From: Acidimicrobiales bacterium
GTDB taxonomy: Bacteria > Actinomycetota > Acidimicrobiia > Acidimicrobiales > SZUA-35
DNA length: 64,000 nt
Assembly: GCA_020629155.1 (NCBI GenBank)
Contig: JAHDDW010000004.1
Location: 68,018-132,017, forward strand
Reading direction: 5' to 3'
Part shown: positions 6,633-57,676 of the stretch, in pieces
How the letters are laid out: each line of letters begins with the position of its first letter
Position numbering within the stretch: the first letter of the stretch is position 1
Translations under genes and position numbers: made by a program
The notes under the pieces: model-generated
What the model was told of the DNA's origin: nothing
Databases searched by the model: none
Seen by the model: the letters and a program-made list of their open reading frames with translations, nothing else

Positions 6633-6685
6633 AGTAGTAACTTTAGTCTTCTAACAGCTAACATCACTACGCAGCTAAAATTCAC

Positions 6686-6807
6686 GCTATCTCTATTTTT
6701 GTTTCGTATCAAATCGTTTTACCAGAGAACCGCTAAAATCTGCGTGTAAACGCCCCGAGCAGAGCGGAAATACCGAGGGCATCTATACTAAATAGAGATG
6801 CCCTTTA
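6686..6807 (+). repeat. Family 1 dispersed palindromic repeat, copy A
   Basis: A reference copy of a repeat found at several places in the window. It has a T-rich left part (from GCTATCTCTATTTTT), a GC-rich core (ACGCCCCGAGCAGAGCGG) and a right-hand hairpin GGGCATCT (6777-6784) / AGATGCCC (6796-6803). It fills most of the hisN-hisC divergent region and ends about 10 bp before the hisC start, so the hairpin would lie in or beside the hisC leader. Confidence 0.8.
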
Positions 6808-6816
6808 TCGAGAAAA

Positions 6817-9958: not shown

Positions 9959-10107
9959 CCTAGATAGTTGATATCAAGCCTGTTCAGGTGGTCATTCCCA
10001 CGAAAGTGGGAATCTCTGCTGAACAAGATTCCCGATTTCTCGGGGGAGACCATCCCGGAATCAAGAGAGAGCAAAAACGATAGCGTTACTTGCGTGCAAA
10101 ATACTTT
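9959..10107 (+). repeat. Family 2 palindromic repeat, copy 1
   Basis: A 149-bp element present again in inverted orientation at 14584-14732, about nine in ten bases the same by eye. It carries two hairpins, ATTCCCACGAAAGTGGGAAT (9993-10012) and CCCGATTTCTCGGG (10031-10044), joined by a conserved linker, then a conserved tail (AATCAAGAGAGAGCAAAAAC). The first hairpin belongs to the widespread bacterial GTCATTCCC-type repeats. Its right end touches family 1 copy B. Confidence 0.8.
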
Positions 10108-10229
10108 AAGGCATCTCTAAAAGTGTAGATGCCCCTCTGTATTTCCGCTGCGCTCGGCGCGTTTCACGCAGTCTTTTGGCGGTTTTTGATTAAAGTGGTT
10201 CAGCAAAAAAAGAATAAATAGAGATAGTC
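10108..10229 (-). repeat. Family 1 dispersed palindromic repeat, copy B
   Basis: An inverted copy of the element at 6686-6807. Read on the minus strand it matches the T-rich left part (CTATCTCTATTT), the ACCGCCAAAA segment, the CTGCGTG-AAACGC core and the closing GGCATCT / AGATGCC hairpin. It directly follows family 2 copy 1, so 9959-10229 is a compound of both families. The remaining 10230-10330 shows no gene. Confidence 0.8.
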
Positions 10230-10330
10230 TTTAGAATTCCACATACCTTTGCAATCAACCATCTAGCATCGTAGCTGAAGCTGCTATGGTGTCGCGCCGA
10301 TCTTCTTGCTGACTGGAAAAAGAGGATTGT

Positions 10331-14545: not shown

Positions 14546-14583
14546 GAAAGCTGGTTCACACAGCTTCAGTACGTCGAATTTTA

Positions 14584-14732
14584 AAATATTTTGCACGCAA
14601 GTAGCGCTATTGTTTTTGCTCTCTCTTGATTCCAGGGTGGTCATCCCCGAGAAATCGGGGATCTTGTCCAGCAAAGATTCCCACTTTCGTGGGAATGACG
14701 ACCTGAATAGGCTTGGAAACAACCATCTAGGT
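14584..14732 (-). repeat. Family 2 palindromic repeat, copy 2
   Basis: An inverted, near-identical partner of the element at 9959-10107, carrying both hairpins (14643-14662 and 14676-14695) and the conserved GTTTTTGCTCTCTCTTGATT tail. Its end lies inside the 3' end of the convergent transporter ATPase gene: the TAG stop (14727-14729) is within the repeat. The hairpins are placed to act as a 3' barrier for both flanking genes. Confidence 0.8.
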
Positions 14733-20717: not shown

Positions 20718-20898
20718 GCGTAAGTTTGATCGTCTGCGTCGCAATTTATTTTGAAGCTGTAAGAAATGCTTCGGAGTGGTTCGTGATTTGCAGCATGTAG
20801 TACGTTGTTGTGTAGCTCATAGTCATGTGCTGTATGAATGGTTTAGTAGAAAAGCGATAAATAGACATGGCTTTTAGGGGTTCCTTTCGTAACGTTGC

Positions 20899-24244: not shown

Positions 24245-25567
24245 GTGGATTATGTACAGTCGCTAGAATTTTTAGATCGCCATATCAATCTTGAGCGTTC
24301 AAAGAAGCGTCGTCTGCCTGTAGCTGGGCAGACTGAAGCGCTTTCGTTAGAACCAATGCGGAAACTTCTTGAAGTAGTAGGGAACCCGCATGAAACATTT
24401 CGTTCTATTCATGTAACAGGCACAAACGGCAAAGGGTCGGTTTCTGCTATTGCAGCAAGCTTAATTGAGGCGAGAGATCTTTCAGTTGGGCTTTATTCAA
24501 GTCCGCATTTTGTTTCTATCAACGAGCGTGTTGTCGCAAATGGCCAACCGATTAGCGATGAGTCGTTCGCCGCTATTGTCACATTGTTAGCATCAGTCGA
24601 AGAAATGATAGATGTACCGCTGAGCTGGTTTGAATTGATGACAGCGTTAGCGTTCATCTATTTTAGTGAACAAGCGGTCGATGTTGCTGTGGTAGAAGTT
24701 GGGATGTTGGGTCGTTATGATGCGACAAATGTTATCACTAGCGATGTTGCAGTGATCACAAATGTTGGGAAAGACCATACAGACGGAAGCCCAGGTTGGC
24801 GTCGAAAGGTTGCTGCTGAAAAGGCAGGAATTTGCAAACCAACCAGCCATATCATTTTGGGAAGCGACATGGGAGACTGTGCTGATGAATTCACAAAGGT
24901 AGCAGCTAGTGAGCTTTGGCAACAAGGCGACGATTTCATACTTGCATCAAACCAGCTAAGTGTCGGAGGGCGTGTGCTTGACATTACAACGCCTGGACAG
25001 AACTATGAAGAACTCTTCGTGCCTCTTCACGGCCACTATCAAGGTGTCAATGTTGCCACAGCAGTGGCCGCAGTAGAAGCGTTTTTCTCGGCGGCTGCAC
25101 CTCAAGAGCTTGTCGAACATGGTCTGTCAGAGGTTCATGTAACTGGCCGAATGCAAGCGCTGGAGAGTGAACCACTGCTTATCGTTGATTCAGCACATAA
25201 TAAGGACGCTTTAGAGGCGCTCACTGCTGCAATGGTTGAAACCTTTCCTCGTGTCGGTTCGTGGGTTTTGGTTATTGGTCTTCTGCAAGGTAGAGATGTG
25301 ATAGAGCAGTTACAGGCGTTAGATATCGGCTCATATGACGGCGTTATTTGTTGCGAACCTGATTCTCCTAGAGCATTGTCAGCTAATGAGCTTGCCGCAG
25401 CTGTGCAAACGTTTGGCATAGATGCCGAAGTGGTCCGCTCGCCAATAGAAGCTGTTGGTAGAGCCAAAGCAGTTGTTGGCGATAATGACCTTGTGCTTGT
25501 TACTGGCAGCGCCTATGTGGTTGGCGAGATATTGGATGTCGCAAAAAACCCTCCTAGGCTTGAATAG
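24245..25567 (+). CDS. folC: Folylpolyglutamate synthase / dihydrofolate synthase
   Basis: A 440-residue Mur-ligase-like enzyme that adds glutamate to dihydropteroate or folates with ATP. The P-loop is VTGTNGKGSVSAIAASL near residue 58. Further family blocks are GLYSSPHFVSINERV near residue 82, EVGMLGRYDATNV near residue 154, and ITNVGKDHTD near residue 174. The C-terminal domain begins with VTGRMQALESEPLLIVDSAHN. The start is GTG at 24245 after GGGGGAG. It sits between clpX and the PASTA kinase gene; valS, often found here in actinobacteria, is absent. Confidence 0.93.
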   Translation: MDYVQSLEFLDRHINLERSKKRRLPVAGQTEALSLEPMRKLLEVVGNPHETFRSIHVTGTNGKGSVSAIAASLIEARDLSVGLYSSPHFVSINERVVANGQPISDESFAAIVTLLASVEEMIDVPLSWFELMTALAFIYFSEQAVDVAVVEVGMLGRYDATNVITSDVAVITNVGKDHTDGSPGWRRKVAAEKAGICKPTSHIILGSDMGDCADEFTKVAASELWQQGDDFILASNQLSVGGRVLDITTPGQNYEELFVPLHGHYQGVNVATAVAAVEAFFSAAAPQELVEHGLSEVHVTGRMQALESEPLLIVDSAHNKDALEALTAAMVETFPRVGSWVLVIGLLQGRDVIEQLQALDIGSYDGVICCEPDSPRALSANELAAAVQTFGIDAEVVRSPIEAVGRAKAVVGDNDLVLVTGSAYVVGEILDVAKNPPRLE

Positions 25568-25591: not shown

Positions 25592-27796
25592 ATGACAGAA
25601 GAATCTAGAACAAATGGAGACTCCCTTGAGCGTAGGCCTAGTAATCGTTTTGCTGCTGAACAGCTTGACCAGAAAACTGCTAAAGGCTCCGTGGAGCAGC
25701 CCGAGCGAAGCGGGAATGCTGAGGGGATGTACGATAGTGCACATCCCCTTGAGTTAGAAGGATTCACCAACATAAAAAAGATAGCCCGTGGTGGATCATC
25801 TGTTGTGTACTCGGCATTTCAGGAAGATTTCGGGCGAGAAGTCGCTATTAAAGTTCTTAGCAACCCTGAAGATGAAGCCGAATGCGTTCGTTTCGAGCGT
25901 GAATGTCTTCTCATGGGGAAGCTTTCGCCCGTGTCTGGTGTTGCGGCTATTTATACTTCTGGAAAAACGTTGGAAGGCGCACCGTATCTAGTGCTGCCGT
26001 TTTATGCTCGTGGAACTCTTCAAGACAAAATAAATGCTGAAGGTGCGATTGCGTGGCGTGAGGCTATTCGTCTAATGCGCAGTGTCGCTAAAACCTTGGT
26101 TGCTGCACATAAGTTAGAGATCAACCATCGAGATATCAAGCCAGCAAATATTTTGTTAACCGACGAAGGGTCGACTGATCTTGTTGATTTTGGTGTGGCG
26201 TCTTCTGGCTATAACGGTCCTGAAACAACGGTTGCTGGTTCACCAGCGTTTGCTGCGCCCGAAATTTTGGCAGGTAAAGCAAATCCGTCAGGTGTGATGG
26301 TTGATATCTATGGAGTCGGCGCAACACTATGGGCTTTACTAGCTGGCAAGCCTCCATTTGTGACCTTCGATGATACGGCACAAACTGCTGCGTTCGTAGC
26401 AAAAACGCCTGTTGGTAACCTTCGTGATACTGTCCCAGACGAGGTTTGTTTGACGGTCGAAAAAGCGATGTCTAAACAGCCGCAAGATAGGTTTAACTCG
26501 GTCGCTGAATTGGTCGAAGTGTTCGACCTTTTGCTAGAGACAGAAGGTTCTCACGTAGGTTTCTCTGAAGATCCGGCTGCTACAGCTGCATTGCCGATCG
26601 TTGAAATTGGAGACAGCGACATTGGCGAGCTCAGCGAGTTAGAAGACGACCAGATAGACGAAGTGGCTTCAGTGCCTACTCATGAACCGCCTGGTATGGC
26701 TACGGCTATCTTTCCTGTAGTCCCAGAACAACAAGAGCAATCTGGTTTGTCAGTTTCTTCAATGCCTGATGGGCTAGAGCCAGATGTTGTCTATAGCGAT
26801 GAGATCGAGGAAAAGAAAAAGTTTCCTGTCCTTTTGACGCTTGTTATAACAGCGTTGCTTGTTATTGTCGGAGCTGCACTATTTCTCTTTGTTAAGGATC
26901 GAATAGAATCTGGCACAACGACAGTGGCTGACTATTCTGAAAGTAGCGAAGCAGAGGTAAAGACAAAGGCAGATGCTGCGCAGTGGCTATTTGAGGTAGA
27001 ACGAGCTCGCGAAGACGGCTCGAAAGAAGGCGATATTATCTCGCAGGAACCTGAAGCAGGCGCCGAGCTGGCTAAAGGGGGACTCTTAAAAATTGTTGTT
27101 TCTGAAGGTCAAGAACTGCGTGAGTTGCCTGAGAAGATTGCTGACCAAGATCCTGCTACTCTTTTTGAGGTTCTAGAAAAAAATGGTTTTGAGCGGGGCG
27201 AAATCATCAAACAAAATAGTACTGAAACTATTAAAGACGCAGTCATAGAGGCACAGGTCGAAGGTAAGGAAGCTGATGGTTCATATGAGACAGGTACAGT
27301 CGTTGATCTTGTTGTAAGTTCTGGTCCTGAGATGAAGACGATTCCATTGCTTACTTCTCCTGAAGAAGTGCAAACAGTGCTAGAGCAAGAGCTTGGCTTT
27401 ACAATTCGTCAAATTGATGGGTTTTCTGAAGATATCCCGCAGGGGCAAATTATCCGCACGGAACCAGCTGCAGGAGTTAAAGCAGAGGTTGGAAGTGAAG
27501 TTACAGTGGTTATCTCTACTGGGTCTGCTGAGCGTGATGTGCCAAGTGTTGACGGCATGGCTGTTGAACAAGCAACGAAGCTTCTAACCGACCAAGGTTT
27601 CGAAGTCGAAATAAAAAATGAGGCACCTAATAATTGCAGAATTCGAGTTAGGAATAGAAATGAATGCAGTTTGTATCAGGCTAATCTAGTGTGGAAGCAT
27701 TCTCCGAGCGGGAAACGAAAAGCTGGCGATAAGATCACGCTGTATTATCAAAACCCTGCAGGAGGGTTTTTTGAAGAAGGCGATGATGACGACTAG
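25592..27796 (+). CDS. PASTA-domain Ser/Thr protein kinase (PknB-like) with in-frame repeat insertion
   Basis: A 734-residue membrane kinase. The catalytic domain spans about residues 50-320: glycine loop RGGSSVVYSAF, VAIKVL with the ATP lysine, catalytic HRDIKPANILL near residue 178, VDFGVAS near residue 199, and SPAFAAPEIL. An acidic juxtamembrane region follows, then one membrane helix near residues 410-433 (FPVLLTLVITALLVIVGAAL), then about four extracellular PASTA repeats to the C-terminus. PASTA kinases sense muropeptides and control growth and division. Residues about 25-53 are encoded by a family 1 repeat. GGGAG precedes the ATG by about 9 bp. Confidence 0.92.
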   Translation: MTEESRTNGDSLERRPSNRFAAEQLDQKTAKGSVEQPERSGNAEGMYDSAHPLELEGFTNIKKIARGGSSVVYSAFQEDFGREVAIKVLSNPEDEAECVRFERECLLMGKLSPVSGVAAIYTSGKTLEGAPYLVLPFYARGTLQDKINAEGAIAWREAIRLMRSVAKTLVAAHKLEINHRDIKPANILLTDEGSTDLVDFGVASSGYNGPETTVAGSPAFAAPEILAGKANPSGVMVDIYGVGATLWALLAGKPPFVTFDDTAQTAAFVAKTPVGNLRDTVPDEVCLTVEKAMSKQPQDRFNSVAELVEVFDLLLETEGSHVGFSEDPAATAALPIVEIGDSDIGELSELEDDQIDEVASVPTHEPPGMATAIFPVVPEQQEQSGLSVSSMPDGLEPDVVYSDEIEEKKKFPVLLTLVITALLVIVGAALFLFVKDRIESGTTTVADYSESSEAEVKTKADAAQWLFEVERAREDGSKEGDIISQEPEAGAELAKGGLLKIVVSEGQELRELPEKIADQDPATLFEVLEKNGFERGEIIKQNSTETIKDAVIEAQVEGKEADGSYETGTVVDLVVSSGPEMKTIPLLTSPEEVQTVLEQELGFTIRQIDGFSEDIPQGQIIRTEPAAGVKAEVGSEVTVVISTGSAERDVPSVDGMAVEQATKLLTDQGFEVEIKNEAPNNCRIRVRNRNECSLYQANLVWKHSPSGKRKAGDKITLYYQNPAGGFFEEGDDDD
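25665..25750 (+). repeat. Family 1 palindromic repeat, copy C, inside the kinase gene
   Basis: Matches copy D (53566-53650) and the core of copy A. The shared blocks are CTGCTAAAGGCT, CCCGAGCGAAGCGGGA and the hairpin AGGGGATGT (25722-25730) / ACATCCCCT (25741-25749). It is read in frame as kinase residues of the type AKGSVEQPERSGNAEGMYD. Copy D would encode the closely similar AKGCVQRPERSGTSEGMY in the matching frame. Confidence 0.85.
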
Positions 27797-27876: not shown

Positions 27877-28287
27877 GTGACAAGAACTCTACTTATATGT
27901 AAGCCTGACGCTGTTGAGCGTGGCTATGTCGGTGAAATATTCGGTCGTCTAGAGCGTAAAGGCTTAAAATTAGCCGCTGTTGAAATGCGCACGCTGGATG
28001 ACGATACGTTAGCTGAACATTATCGTGAGCATCAAGAAAAGCCATTTTATGCTGATCTTGTGTCGTTCATGAAAAGAAGCCCCGTCGTAGTCGCTGTTGT
28101 TGAAGGTCCTGAAGATACATTCGCTATTGTAAGAACTCTTATGGGTTCGACAAATCCTGCAGAAGCATTGCCAGGAACAATCCGAGGCGATTTGGGAACT
28201 GAAATGACAGAGAACCTCGTTCATGGTTCTGATTCTGCCGAGTCGGCGGCAAGGGAAATAAAGATATTTTTCCCTGAGCTTCTGTAA
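27877..28287 (+). CDS. ndk: Nucleoside diphosphate kinase
   Basis: A 136-residue enzyme that balances NTP pools by moving phosphate through a His intermediate. It begins RTLLICKPDAVERGYVGEI. The active-site motif, usually NxxHGSD, is NLVHGSDSAESA near residue 113, with His116 the likely phosphorylated residue. Length and motifs are standard. The start is GTG at 27877 with a leaderless-type promoter. It lies between the kinase gene and RNase E/G, a common actinobacterial neighbourhood. Confidence 0.97.
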   Translation: MTRTLLICKPDAVERGYVGEIFGRLERKGLKLAAVEMRTLDDDTLAEHYREHQEKPFYADLVSFMKRSPVVVAVVEGPEDTFAIVRTLMGSTNPAEALPGTIRGDLGTEMTENLVHGSDSAESAAREIKIFFPELL

Positions 28288-28310
28288 GAGAATGTTTGTT
28301 ATTGTACATG

Positions 28311-28402
28311 CCCTCAGTAGTGCAGCTGCGCTCAGTACGTTAACACGCAGCTTGGTGTTTACGTTATGTGGGGTTAGTGCTAAAACTCTAAGAGATACTT
28401 AG
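28311..28402 (-). repeat. Degraded family 1 repeat, copy E
   Basis: Read on the minus strand it matches copy A in the core (CTGCGTGTTAACG-, -GAGCGCAG-, CTGAGGGCATGTAC) but the right hairpin arm is lost. It occupies most of the ndk-RNase E/G gap (28288-28485), which holds no ORF. An imperfect inverted repeat (CGAATCCGG / CCCGATTCG, 28431-28455) follows. Confidence 0.55.
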
Positions 28403-28485
28403 TGTTTGCAAAAAATAATTTTTAAGACGAATCCGGCGATTAGCCCGATTCGGTGTCAGCGTATCCGCTGGCCGAAGGGAATATC

Positions 28486-36534: not shown

Positions 36535-36666
36535 GCTTGGTGAAGCTTCGGTTGCATAGATAAAGCGGATGCGTCGTAGCTGGTGTCCGTCATCTTCGTC
36601 ATAGCGTCTACCAAGGTCTTCAATAAAAGCATCTCTGATGGCTTCAAGGATCCCGTCATCCCCAAC
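36535..36666 (-). pseudogene. Coding remnant of an unidentified gene
   Basis: The minus strand reads open from a stop at 36667-36669 as GILEAIRDAFIEDLGRRYD, then EDDGHQLRRIRFIYATEAS, with coding-like codon and residue use but no start codon. The upstream side is interrupted by 20-bp tandem repeats, and the downstream side runs into the ompA terminator. It looks like a fragment cut by the repeat. I do not recognise the family. Confidence 0.35.
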
Positions 36667-36757
36667 TTAATCCCGTCATCCTCGGCTTAATCCCGTCATC
36701 CCCAACTTGATTGGGGATCTCTCCTTGGTTAGATTCCCAGTCGTGGCTGGGAATGAC
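36651..36757 (+). repeat. 20-bp tandem repeats joined to a family 2-like hairpin pair
   Basis: Three consecutive 20-bp units start with TCCCGTCATC at 36651, 36671 and 36691. The third runs into two hairpins, ATCCCCAACTTGATTGGGGAT and ATTCCCAGTCGTGGCTGGGAAT, separated by a short linker and closed by GACG. This is the same skeleton as family 2 (GTCAT-hairpin-ATCTCT-linker-AGATT-hairpin-GAC). Confidence 0.7.
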
Positions 36758-37004
36758 GTGGTTGTGGCTGTTTGTTATCCAAAGGCAAGCGGTGATCATC
36801 TTTTTGTTGCTCCTTTGGCATTGCTTGCAGATGGAATTGGCGCTGCGATGGAAATCTATATGTCATCTCGCTGGGGAACGTTTGGTTTTGCTATGGAGTT
36901 TGCTTCGGCCCCCTTGAATGACTGCTGCGGTCGTTCACCTATAAGAAATGGCAACGCTTGTGCTAAGACAAACGCCGCTCGTGGTCAAATCGTCGTCAAG
37001 TTGC
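36758..37004. other. Gene-free stretch upstream of ilvD
   Basis: About 250 bp without a convincing gene. The plus strand stays open across it (reading ALLADGIGAAMEIYMSSRWG in one frame), but there is no start signal, no family match that I recognise, and the minus strand is also partly open. It may be another decayed coding fragment. Confidence 0.3.
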
Positions 37005-49593: not shown

Positions 49594-49919
49594 AAGACGT
49601 GTATTCCCAAAAATATCTAGAATTTATAGTCGGCTTGCTTTGTTAGAAACTAAGAAGTCCGATGAGAATGTAAGAGGATGTCTTTTAATGCCCATCCCTT
49701 GCCGATTGAGTAGGAAGCGACACAACGACATGGTTAGAAGGTGGGTGGCAATTCATGCCGCAATGAAGGTAGTCTTGATGGAGGATGTTTTTTTATCTTA
49801 CATCTACTCGTTATTGCCGATGCGTTTGGTCAACTTTACGCAGGTCATAGCGTGTGTTTGTCCAAGCGATCAGTCTAGAAAAGCAATACAAAGGCGTGGC
49901 GTATATGAATGGAGCTGAA
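49594..49919. other. Divergent intergenic region between MoxR and HtrA genes
   Basis: A 326-bp gap. A plus-strand frame is open across it but begins inside the MoxR gene and has no start signal. GAGGATGTC and CATCCCTT near 49678-49704 recall the family 1 hairpin weakly. It must hold promoters for both directions; none is clear. Confidence 0.4.
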
Positions 49920-51404
49920 ATGAACGAAACGTTTGATGGGCAAGGCCAAAATTTTCAGGTGCCAGGGTCTAAAAGCGTTCCTTCAGAATCTTCTGTGCCT
50001 GAAATACCTGTGCCAGGTCCGCGTTTTCTTCATGGCATAGAACATTCTGCGAGTGAAGGCTCTGCGGTCGATAGCGCAGAGACAGTATTTGCTCGTTCTG
50101 CTGCGGCAAATCCTCCCCAGTCGCCACCGATTAGCATCGGTAGCCCCAGCGACCTTTCTCCAACGGTTGAAAGCCCAGCAGTTGTAGCCAACGGCCATTT
50201 GCAGCCACCACAAGCTCGCCAATCAACTCCTTTGGCTACGTCATCGCTGCTTGCACCTTCAGATGAGGCAACACCTCGTGTTATCCAGAAACAGTCGTTC
50301 TGGGGTTGGCGCACACTCGTCGCATTCGTTGCAGGTGGCCTTTTAGCTGGCGGAGGGTTCTTAGCTGCTCGATATCCGTTTGATGAAGAAACGAAGGAAG
50401 CTATAACAGCACAGCCTGCGCAAGAGCCTGTTTCAGTCGATAACCAAGAAGGTGAAACCCCTATTCTTGAAGGAAATACTGCTGAACCTGCTGTTGCTGT
50501 TGCTGAAGCACTTGCACCTGCTGTTGTACAGATCTTGACAAACGAAGGGTCTGGTTCGGGTGTTGTGTATCGAGATAATTTGATTATCACAAACCATCAT
50601 GTCATTGATGGCGTCGATGATGAGCCTTCCGATAATGATCCGCGTCTCGAATCTCAAGCGCTTGGCGAAGGTAAGGTTCGAGTTGTGCAAGCTGATGGTC
50701 GTGTGCTTGAAGGCGAAGTATTAGGCTCAAGTGAACGGATAGACATCGCTGTCGTCCAGGTTGAAGGCGGTGACCTCAAAGTGGCGCAGCTTGCAACTGA
50801 AGATGCAAAGGTTGGGCAAACAGCTATAGCGATAGGCGCGCCATTTCAGCTTCAGCAGTCAGTTACTGAGGGTATTATTTCGGCGTTGAATCGGCCGATT
50901 CCTAATCGGACACTTGATAGTTTCCGTCCGATGATTCAAACCGATGCCCCAATTAATCCTGGTAATTCTGGCGGCGCGCTGGCTGATAGTCAGGGCCGTG
51001 TGATCGGGATTAACACTTCTATCCAAACAGATGGGTTAAGTATTACTAACGCAGGTGTTGGGTTTGCGATCCCTACCGAAATTGCCGTTGCGACAGCAGA
51101 CAAAATTGTTGCGGGCGAACCCATCGAGGCTGGCTTTCTAGGGATCATCCCGACGAATCCAACGTTAGGTGAGGTCGGGGTTGGTATTGATCGTGTCACC
51201 GAAGGGACAGCTGCTGAAAAAGCTGGTCTTGAAGTTGGCGATCGTATTCTTAGCGTCGACGGTGCTCCTGTCACCTTACGAGAAGAACTTATTGGTCTTG
51301 TCGCTGTGCATGCTCCTGGCGACATTATCGAATTAGAAATATTGCGAGGCGAAGAGCGCTTAAAAATTAAAGCAACACTTGATACAAGACCAACAGGTGA
51401 ATAA
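49920..51404 (+). CDS. HtrA/DegP-like membrane serine protease with PDZ domain
   Basis: A 494-residue protease. A long Pro/Ser-rich cytoplasmic N-terminus (1-123) precedes one membrane helix near residues 128-147 (LVAFVAGGLLAGGGFLAA). The trypsin-like domain has His in ITNHHVIDG near residue 225, Asp in RIDIAVVQVEG near residue 276 and Ser in NPGNSGGAL near residue 347. A PDZ domain (TAAEKAGLEVGDRILSVDG) ends the protein. The ATG at 49920 is preferred for GGAG 6 bp upstream; starts at 49905 and earlier lack one. It handles misfolded or regulated envelope proteins. Confidence 0.93.
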   Translation: MNETFDGQGQNFQVPGSKSVPSESSVPEIPVPGPRFLHGIEHSASEGSAVDSAETVFARSAAANPPQSPPISIGSPSDLSPTVESPAVVANGHLQPPQARQSTPLATSSLLAPSDEATPRVIQKQSFWGWRTLVAFVAGGLLAGGGFLAARYPFDEETKEAITAQPAQEPVSVDNQEGETPILEGNTAEPAVAVAEALAPAVVQILTNEGSGSGVVYRDNLIITNHHVIDGVDDEPSDNDPRLESQALGEGKVRVVQADGRVLEGEVLGSSERIDIAVVQVEGGDLKVAQLATEDAKVGQTAIAIGAPFQLQQSVTEGIISALNRPIPNRTLDSFRPMIQTDAPINPGNSGGALADSQGRVIGINTSIQTDGLSITNAGVGFAIPTEIAVATADKIVAGEPIEAGFLGIIPTNPTLGEVGVGIDRVTEGTAAEKAGLEVGDRILSVDGAPVTLREELIGLVAVHAPGDIIELEILRGEERLKIKATLDTRPTGE

Positions 51405-51408
51405 CACG

Positions 51409-51480
51409 AGTGCATTTCTAAAAATTGTAGATCTCTGGTAAAGCGGTTCGATACAGAACTACTAAATAGAGCTAGCCTAG
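51409..51480 (-). repeat. Degraded family 1 repeat, copy F
   Basis: On the minus strand the left part (GCTAGCTCTATTTAG, TATCGAACCGCTTTACCAGAG) matches copy A, and it ends in ATCTACAATTTTTAGAAATGC, like the closing hairpin of copy B. The GC-rich core is deleted. It lies 5 bp after the HtrA gene stop. The rest of 51405-51570 holds no gene. Confidence 0.55.
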
Positions 51481-51570
51481 AGTAATAGTGGTCTTTGTTG
51501 GTGCAACTAGTGGGTAACGAAGATTTGCGCTATAGAGTTTAGCTTCGGAGGGGTTTGACGATAGGTAGGT

Positions 51571-53565: not shown

Positions 53566-53650
53566 CCGCTGCTAAAGGCTGCGTACAACGCCCCGAGCGG
53601 AGCGGAACTAGTGAGGGGATGTATAGTGAAAAGACATCCCCTTTTTTAAG
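53566..53650 (+). repeat. Family 1 palindromic repeat, copy D, terminator-like
   Basis: Closely matches copy C across CTGCTAAAGGCT, CCCCGAGCGGAGCGGAA and the hairpin AGGGGATGT (53614-53622) / ACATCCCCT (53634-53642). The hairpin is followed by TTTTTT, so this copy has the form of an intrinsic terminator for the membrane protein gene ending at 53562. It also overlaps the stop of the convergent DUF2510 gene. Confidence 0.82.
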
Positions 53651-57603: not shown

Positions 57604-57676
57604 GAAATTATTTCTAAATTTGCCCCCATTTTCAGAAATTATTTCTAAATTTGCCCCCATTTTCAGAAATTATACT
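57604..57676 (+). repeat. 31-bp tandem iterons upstream of the second DUF4143 ATPase
   Basis: Two complete and one partial copy of a 31-bp unit start at 57604, 57635 and 57666. Each full unit carries the palindrome GAAAT-T-ATTTC. The third unit changes to GAAATTATACTC and so creates a TATACT -10 box at 57671-57676. The array ends 15 bp before the ATPase start. Confidence 0.8.

Follow-up and report, generated by a model that had tools for sequence, protein, structure and literature searches.

The window, i.e. the whole stretch of 64,000 nucleotides that was analysed, belongs to a genome of 3.17 Mb with ~46% G+C and the gene order clpX, folC, ndk, rne, an order that would point to Actinomycetota. 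Between the folC-like gene and ndk lies a gene whose product is predicted to be a PknB-like PASTA Ser/Thr kinase: domain matches identify Pkinase (E 2.9e-38) and PASTA (1.7e-22), the catalytic K87, D181 and D199 are kept, the kinase motifs are invariant, and a hydrophobic stretch visible in the translation is read as a transmembrane stretch. Near its start the gene carries a copy of a dispersed element, further copies of which are scattered over the window (Table 1).

Table 1. Genes, insertion features and element copies in the window
Feature	Position	Strand	Remarks
Element copy A, full-length, intergenic	6679..6809	+	130.2 bits; not coding
Element copy B, full-length, intergenic	10103..10235	-	122.6 bits
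Weak element copy	20728..20878	-	25.6 bits, E 1.4e-3
folC-like gene	24245..25567	+	5' of kinase; TAG stop in kinase frame
PASTA-domain Ser/Thr kinase ORF (predicted)	25592..27796	+	734 aa; kinase domain residues 59-302; K87, D181, D199 present
Left flanking direct repeat CCCTTGAG	25623..25630	+	target duplication plus conserved target letters
Full-length MITE-like element copy in kinase	25624..25754	+	model positions 1-133; 119.2 bits; E 9.5e-22 genome-wide, 1.9e-23 window
Inserted DNA, element plus one repeat copy	25631..25753	+	123 bp, codons 14-54, RRPSNRFAAEQLDQKTAKGSVEQPERSGNAEGMYDSAHPLE
Intact terminal hairpin AGGGGATGT/ACATCCCCT	25722..25749	+	fold prediction; stem covaries in family
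In-frame ATG (M47) within element	25727..25729	+	possible alternative start
Right flanking direct repeat CCCTTGAG	25746..25753	+	8/8 match to left copy
Diverged element copy, ndk-rne interval	28282..28406	-	50.8 bits, E 6.4e-9
Weak element copy	49775..49907	-	27.7 bits, E 5e-4
Weak element copy with internal deletion	51400..51483	-	31.1 bits, E 9.5e-5
Copy D, right-half element, intergenic	53569..53644	+	65.8 bits, model 54-130

The inserted segment of the kinase gene

The two copies of CCCTTGAG are spaced by 123 bp, which is exactly 41 codons and contains no stop. When the flanks are joined without these 123 bp (MTEESRTNGDSLELEGFTNIKK), the frame is kept, the join reads MTEESRTNGDSLELEGFTNIKKIARGG, and an N-terminus MTEESRTNGDS-LELEGFTNIKK is restored. 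The codon score of the insert is non-coding-like (-0.23), compared with gene-like scores for the 10 codons before (+0.33) and the 100 codons after it (+0.22). The 8-bp match of the direct repeats has to be read with some care, as it consists partly of conserved end letters and target preference, and a match of 8/8 turns up in some copy in 4.5% of flank-swapped sets.

Homologues of the kinase lack the segment. In 29 other homologues an L-x-I-x-G type motif stands directly before the Gly loop, like L53 here, and in 22 of them an in-frame stop is found less than 52 codons upstream of the L53 equivalent, so that a tail of this length is impossible in these 22. Of the folC loci inspected in relatives, only that of one congener (G001) still has a kinase beside it, the other kinase matches being mostly non-syntenic. 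The syntenic homologue of this congener starts with MAKVAPVIDAYEIEGEAW and has a tail as long as that of the kinase after excision: EIEG is located 11 residues from its start, and LELEG 11 residues from the start of the joined kinase. At 28% identity and with its kinase motifs apparently lost, this homologue provides support rather than proof. It is a strongly diverged, kinase-like PASTA protein (L060 from about 2880) that seems to be without the Gly loop and the HRD/DFG motifs and is possibly a pseudokinase. None of the genomes examined comes from a close relative whose site is empty.

The strong divergence of the syntenic homologue and the apparent loss of its kinase motifs would also suit a decaying kinase gene, i.e. 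a pseudogene in which the insertion is one lesion. However, the ORF is free of stops over all 734 aa, its catalytic residues and PASTA domains are intact, and the codon score downstream of the insert is positive, which makes decay highly improbable.

Because the TAG stop of folC sits in the kinase frame, ATG 25592 is the only usable start 5' of the insertion; it is the sole in-frame ATG, GTG or TTG between that stop and the insertion, and GGGAG precedes it at 8 nt. From the insertion point to the Gly loop the ancestral reading holds none of these three codons. The ancestral start was therefore upstream of the insertion, and the element consequently landed within coding sequence, whichever start is used now.

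The first-pass annotation had proposed a protein segment of repeat origin, confined to 86 bp and to residues 25-53. The origin is borne out by the clean 41-codon insert between direct repeats, by its codon use, by the necessarily upstream ancestral start and by the homologues without the segment, which speak against a segment common to all orthologues. The extent needs correction: the stretch is repeat DNA, but the element spans ~133 bp and the insert covers residues 14-54. A start of translation after the repeat, which the same annotation had considered, does not apply to the ancestral gene, whereas the present gene does possess an ATG inside the element.

With 72% identity to the consensus and a decayed left terminal repeat, the kinase copy is no recent arrival and is probably immobile. 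Its substitutions by codon position (first 16/44, second 8/43, third 13/44) are too few to show selection. The G+C content of this copy is high (0.54 vs 0.44 in the family, sd 0.03). Coding drift was considered as the cause, but the best-matching copy (82% identity) is likewise richer in G+C than the average (0.50), so that a subfamily effect is possible.

The dispersed element family

The 86-bp stretch makes up the right-hand two thirds of a complete element copy, which begins 41 bp 5' of the start given earlier. With the stretch as query, BLAST recovered about 20 copies in the genome that contains it, and a covariance model built from 12 near-complete copies, aligned over ~133 bp, yielded 148 matches at E<=10 in the 3.17-Mb genome, about 120 of them at E<1e-3. 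The 38 other genomes of the family, two congeners included, form a natural negative control and gave no match to the model at E<=1e-3. BLAST found no related element sequence in 297 genomes of the order and no convincing match in 395 genomes of the phylum, where a single 32-bp match in a distant genome was taken as chance (E 1e-3, about 400 genomes). The element core has no exact counterpart in the viral contigs, and the 64-kb window has no Rfam match except two tRNAs. The element family appears to be new and species-restricted, and the claim of a dispersed repeat lying in frame in a PASTA kinase stands.

The left end of the element (CTTNAAGGSTATSTCTATTTATT) and the reverse-complemented right end have ~11 bp in common and constitute terminal inverted repeats: the left terminal pattern GGSTATSTCTA.. 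returns as its reverse complement at the right end, and a single pattern matches both. As a degenerate pattern it matches 43 times in the genome, against once in a reversed control. In a direct-repeat test whose register was set by the kinase copy, itself left out, the flanks of 75 full copies agree at 3.31 of 8 positions vs 2.96 after flank swapping (z 3.1, p=0.002), and the excess is concentrated at the middle two bases of a TNNA core. An inverted comparison of the flanks gave no such signal, and an unregistered longest-common-substring test gave no clear excess of target duplication (mean 4.16 vs 4.00 swapped). From the flanking letters, insertion duplicates a short target, probably of 2-4 bp, within a CTTNAAG-like sequence that the element prefers. 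Its stems show covariation, with 92% of the cells paired and 55 cells changed on both sides vs 18 in shuffles, although the test was favoured by an alignment that had been fitted to the structure.

Given the ~11-bp terminal inverted repeats, the covarying hairpins and the short target duplication, the element qualifies in its sequence features as a new family of MITEs, the partner excepted. Only 27 of 76 full-length copies are open in any of the six frames, and no transposase is encoded. Neither an autonomous partner nor a fitting transposase came to light in a search that covered one transposase family (DDE_Tnp_1) and the end pattern. The sole DDE_Tnp_1 gene (L213) has ends unrelated to those of the element (TNAAGGSTATSTCTA); the end pattern has seven extra matches, which are explained by decay or deletion of copies or by chance; and no transposase-sized element is bracketed by the pattern. 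We infer an origin by transposase.

The existence of such a family bears on the direction of the event. If the kinase segment were ancestral coding sequence that seeded the repeats, or matched them by chance, neither the homologues without the segment nor the family termini and target duplication nor an E value of 9.5e-22 would be expected; all of these refute the idea, to which we give practically no credence.

Several copies elsewhere form compound structures. A tandem array of three 65-bp units corresponds to the right half of the element (L015 1484-1676, G000:C28:44827-45079), and a second array repeats a 69-bp unit from its middle 3.5 times (L153 1326-1567, G000:C5:350864-351105), where the opposite strand is open into a nuoK-like ORF. 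Two copies lie back to back at G000:C58:80417-80653 (L143).

Copies inside genes and the present start of translation

When genes were called simply from codon usage, 98 of 124 copies fell between genes, another 23 ran over the end of a gene and 3 were contained in ORFs, so that the earlier description of the repeat as otherwise intergenic is nearly right. The DNA flanking the copies is 88% coding; set against this figure, the three genic copies are a measure of how seldom in-frame insertion succeeds. Of the full-length copies, that in the kinase alone lies within a gene. A second genic copy is a right half (50.7 bits; G000:C58:53931-54065, L189 and L214), which contributes EYLLRANAPSAAEIPKGCTIKNHPSA to the central part of a conserved membrane-protein ORF of ~1000 aa. 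Orthologues of this protein (47-62% identity over the whole stretch) are without the EYLLRANAPSAAEIPKGCTIKNHPSA segment, the site is a variable linker, and the half copy represents a second, independent in-frame case. The third is doubtful: a candidate fragment (G000:C5:115083-115103, L019; E 0.0076 in 10 kb) encoding GGGNAEGMGNQKPSQ as N-terminal sequence of a different membrane protein, in the reading frame used in the kinase. Copy D had been credited with nearly the same peptide (AKGCVQRPERSG) as the kinase copy (copy C); both readings are correct, and their common reading frame follows from the ungapped similarity, but D is a right-half fragment that belongs to no gene. Only 5 of 76 full copies would provide a stop-free frame in the right phase if placed at the kinase site; in-frame events therefore need luck.

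The event that we consider likely is the in-frame insertion of a non-autonomous MITE into the kinase gene, where it is read through as a tolerated tail. The ~133-bp element would have entered a CTTNAAG-like target after codon 13, just before the kinase domain, and by duplicating the target would have added exactly 41 stop-free codons. The ribosome would start at the ancestral ATG 25592 and read through the element, whose hairpins would persist in the kinase mRNA, and a probably disordered tail of 41 residues would be attached outside the catalytic fold. The insertion would have persisted because the site tolerates extra residues and because, by chance, the frame of this copy was open and matched that of the gene; the left terminal repeat has since decayed, and the copy is probably immobile.

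That the 41 residues are translated is probable, although the present kinase might start instead at M47, in which case most of the element would be 5' untranslated RNA and ~8 element residues (MYDSAHPL) would remain in the protein. This in-frame ATG has GAGGGG before it, and a start here would fit the homologues, which mostly begin 3-17 residues before the L53 equivalent. But GAGGGG abuts this codon without the spacing of a normal Shine-Dalgarno sequence, and is part of a strong hairpin, whereas ATG 25592 has its GGGAG at 8 nt. The frame is moreover open from ATG 25592 across the element, as it would be in few of the full copies, an argument that is weakened by the selection of the case. Taken together, a start at M47 seems unlikely.

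For the reading from ATG 25592, the predicted structure has pLDDT<50 at residues 13-48, which is partly due to the absence of aligned relatives, and the kinase fold sets in from about residue 56 at >90. The model suggests that the 41-residue tail is probably disordered and outside the catalytic fold; most likely it is tolerated, and presumably it is near-neutral.

At the RNA level, the hairpins of the element are contained in the first 165 nt of the kinase coding region, and the first 189 nt have a predicted fold of -53.5 kcal/mol. The hairpin that the first-pass annotation had described as intact in the kinase copy is so, and is now coding sequence. By analogy with NEMIS/ERIC RNA and RNase III, the element might be retained because a hairpin near the 5' end of the coding sequence influences how the kinase mRNA is translated or degraded. 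The stability of the fold, the covariation of the stems and their intact state in the kinase copy are consistent with such a role, but covariation characterises the family as a whole, most of whose copies are intergenic, and is silent on selection in the kinase; we regard this explanation as very unlikely. It is also rather improbable that the element was recruited in the wider sense, with the translated tail or the mRNA hairpin tuning how active or how abundant a growth-control kinase is. If recruitment were true, a MITE would have become a segment with a regulatory role in a signalling protein.

Comparison with known systems

In-frame fusions of MITEs with genes are known from the Rickettsia RPEs, from enterobacterial RU-1/ERIC and RU-2 and from Coxiella QMITE2 (PMC10969869, PMC2229807, PMC2759123, PMC5896051). 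The likeness to the Rickettsia palindromic elements (RPEs) that had been suggested for the kinase copy holds for the event and not for the habit. RPEs (Ogata et al. 2000, reviewed in PMC10969869, PMC2229807) are likewise 105-150 bp long, form hairpins, have terminal inverted repeats and lie in frame in a conserved enzyme gene, just as the ~130-bp hairpin element does here. However, as compared by description, they possess a conserved peptide reading frame, whereas most full copies of the present family have stops in every frame, and they are reported to lie in genes in about half of the cases (PMC10969869), in contrast to the 3 of 124 copies, one of them doubtful, found here. The recurrent in-frame genic presence of RPEs is not seen in this family.

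ERIC/RU-1 (127 bp) and RU-2 of enterobacteria (PMC2759123) are MITE-like, mostly intergenic and have few in-frame fusions to conserved genes, as observed here; compared by description, they are closest to the kinase element in size, habit and frequency, although ERIC ends in TA (PMC2229807) and the kinase element has a CTTNAAG-like target. In habit, mostly intergenic with few fusions, the kinase element resembles ERIC more closely than it does RPEs. Correia/NEMIS (107/155 bp) and RUP (107 bp) share the length of ~100-150 bp, terminal inverted repeats, target duplication and highly paired transcripts, and RUP with about 100 copies is similar in number too, but both have TA at their termini and RUP is tied to an IS630 transposase, whereas the kinase element has no partner found (PMC2229807). 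The Coxiella elements QMITE1/QMITE2 are MITEs with short direct repeats and some in-frame protein extensions, as here; QMITE1 is longer (300-400 bp), and each family has about 50 copies (PMC5896051), compared with about 120 in the present one. REP/BIME units are also dispersed intergenic palindromes, but REPs measure 20-40 bp and many bear a GTAG/CGTC tag at one end (PMC3733652); with ~133 bp and distinct ends the kinase element is not a REP/BIME unit.

What appears to be new in our data is accordingly a MITE family of about 120 copies, the in-frame fusion itself being already known from a few other bacteria. The kinase offers a well-delimited case in which a MITE became part of a conserved signalling protein, and the combination of direct repeats, exact 41-codon length and tail-less homologues makes it a clean test case for mobile DNA supplying protein segments beyond Rickettsia and enterobacteria.

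The window contains two further kinds of repeat. A second dispersed palindromic family, unrelated to the first, is found at 9959-10109, 14581-14731 and 36650-36760 (151 nt, 89% inverted match), with the hairpins GATTCCCA..TGGGAATGAC and CCCCGAGAAATCGGGG, and a perfect tandem duplication of 31 bp occupies 57604-57665.
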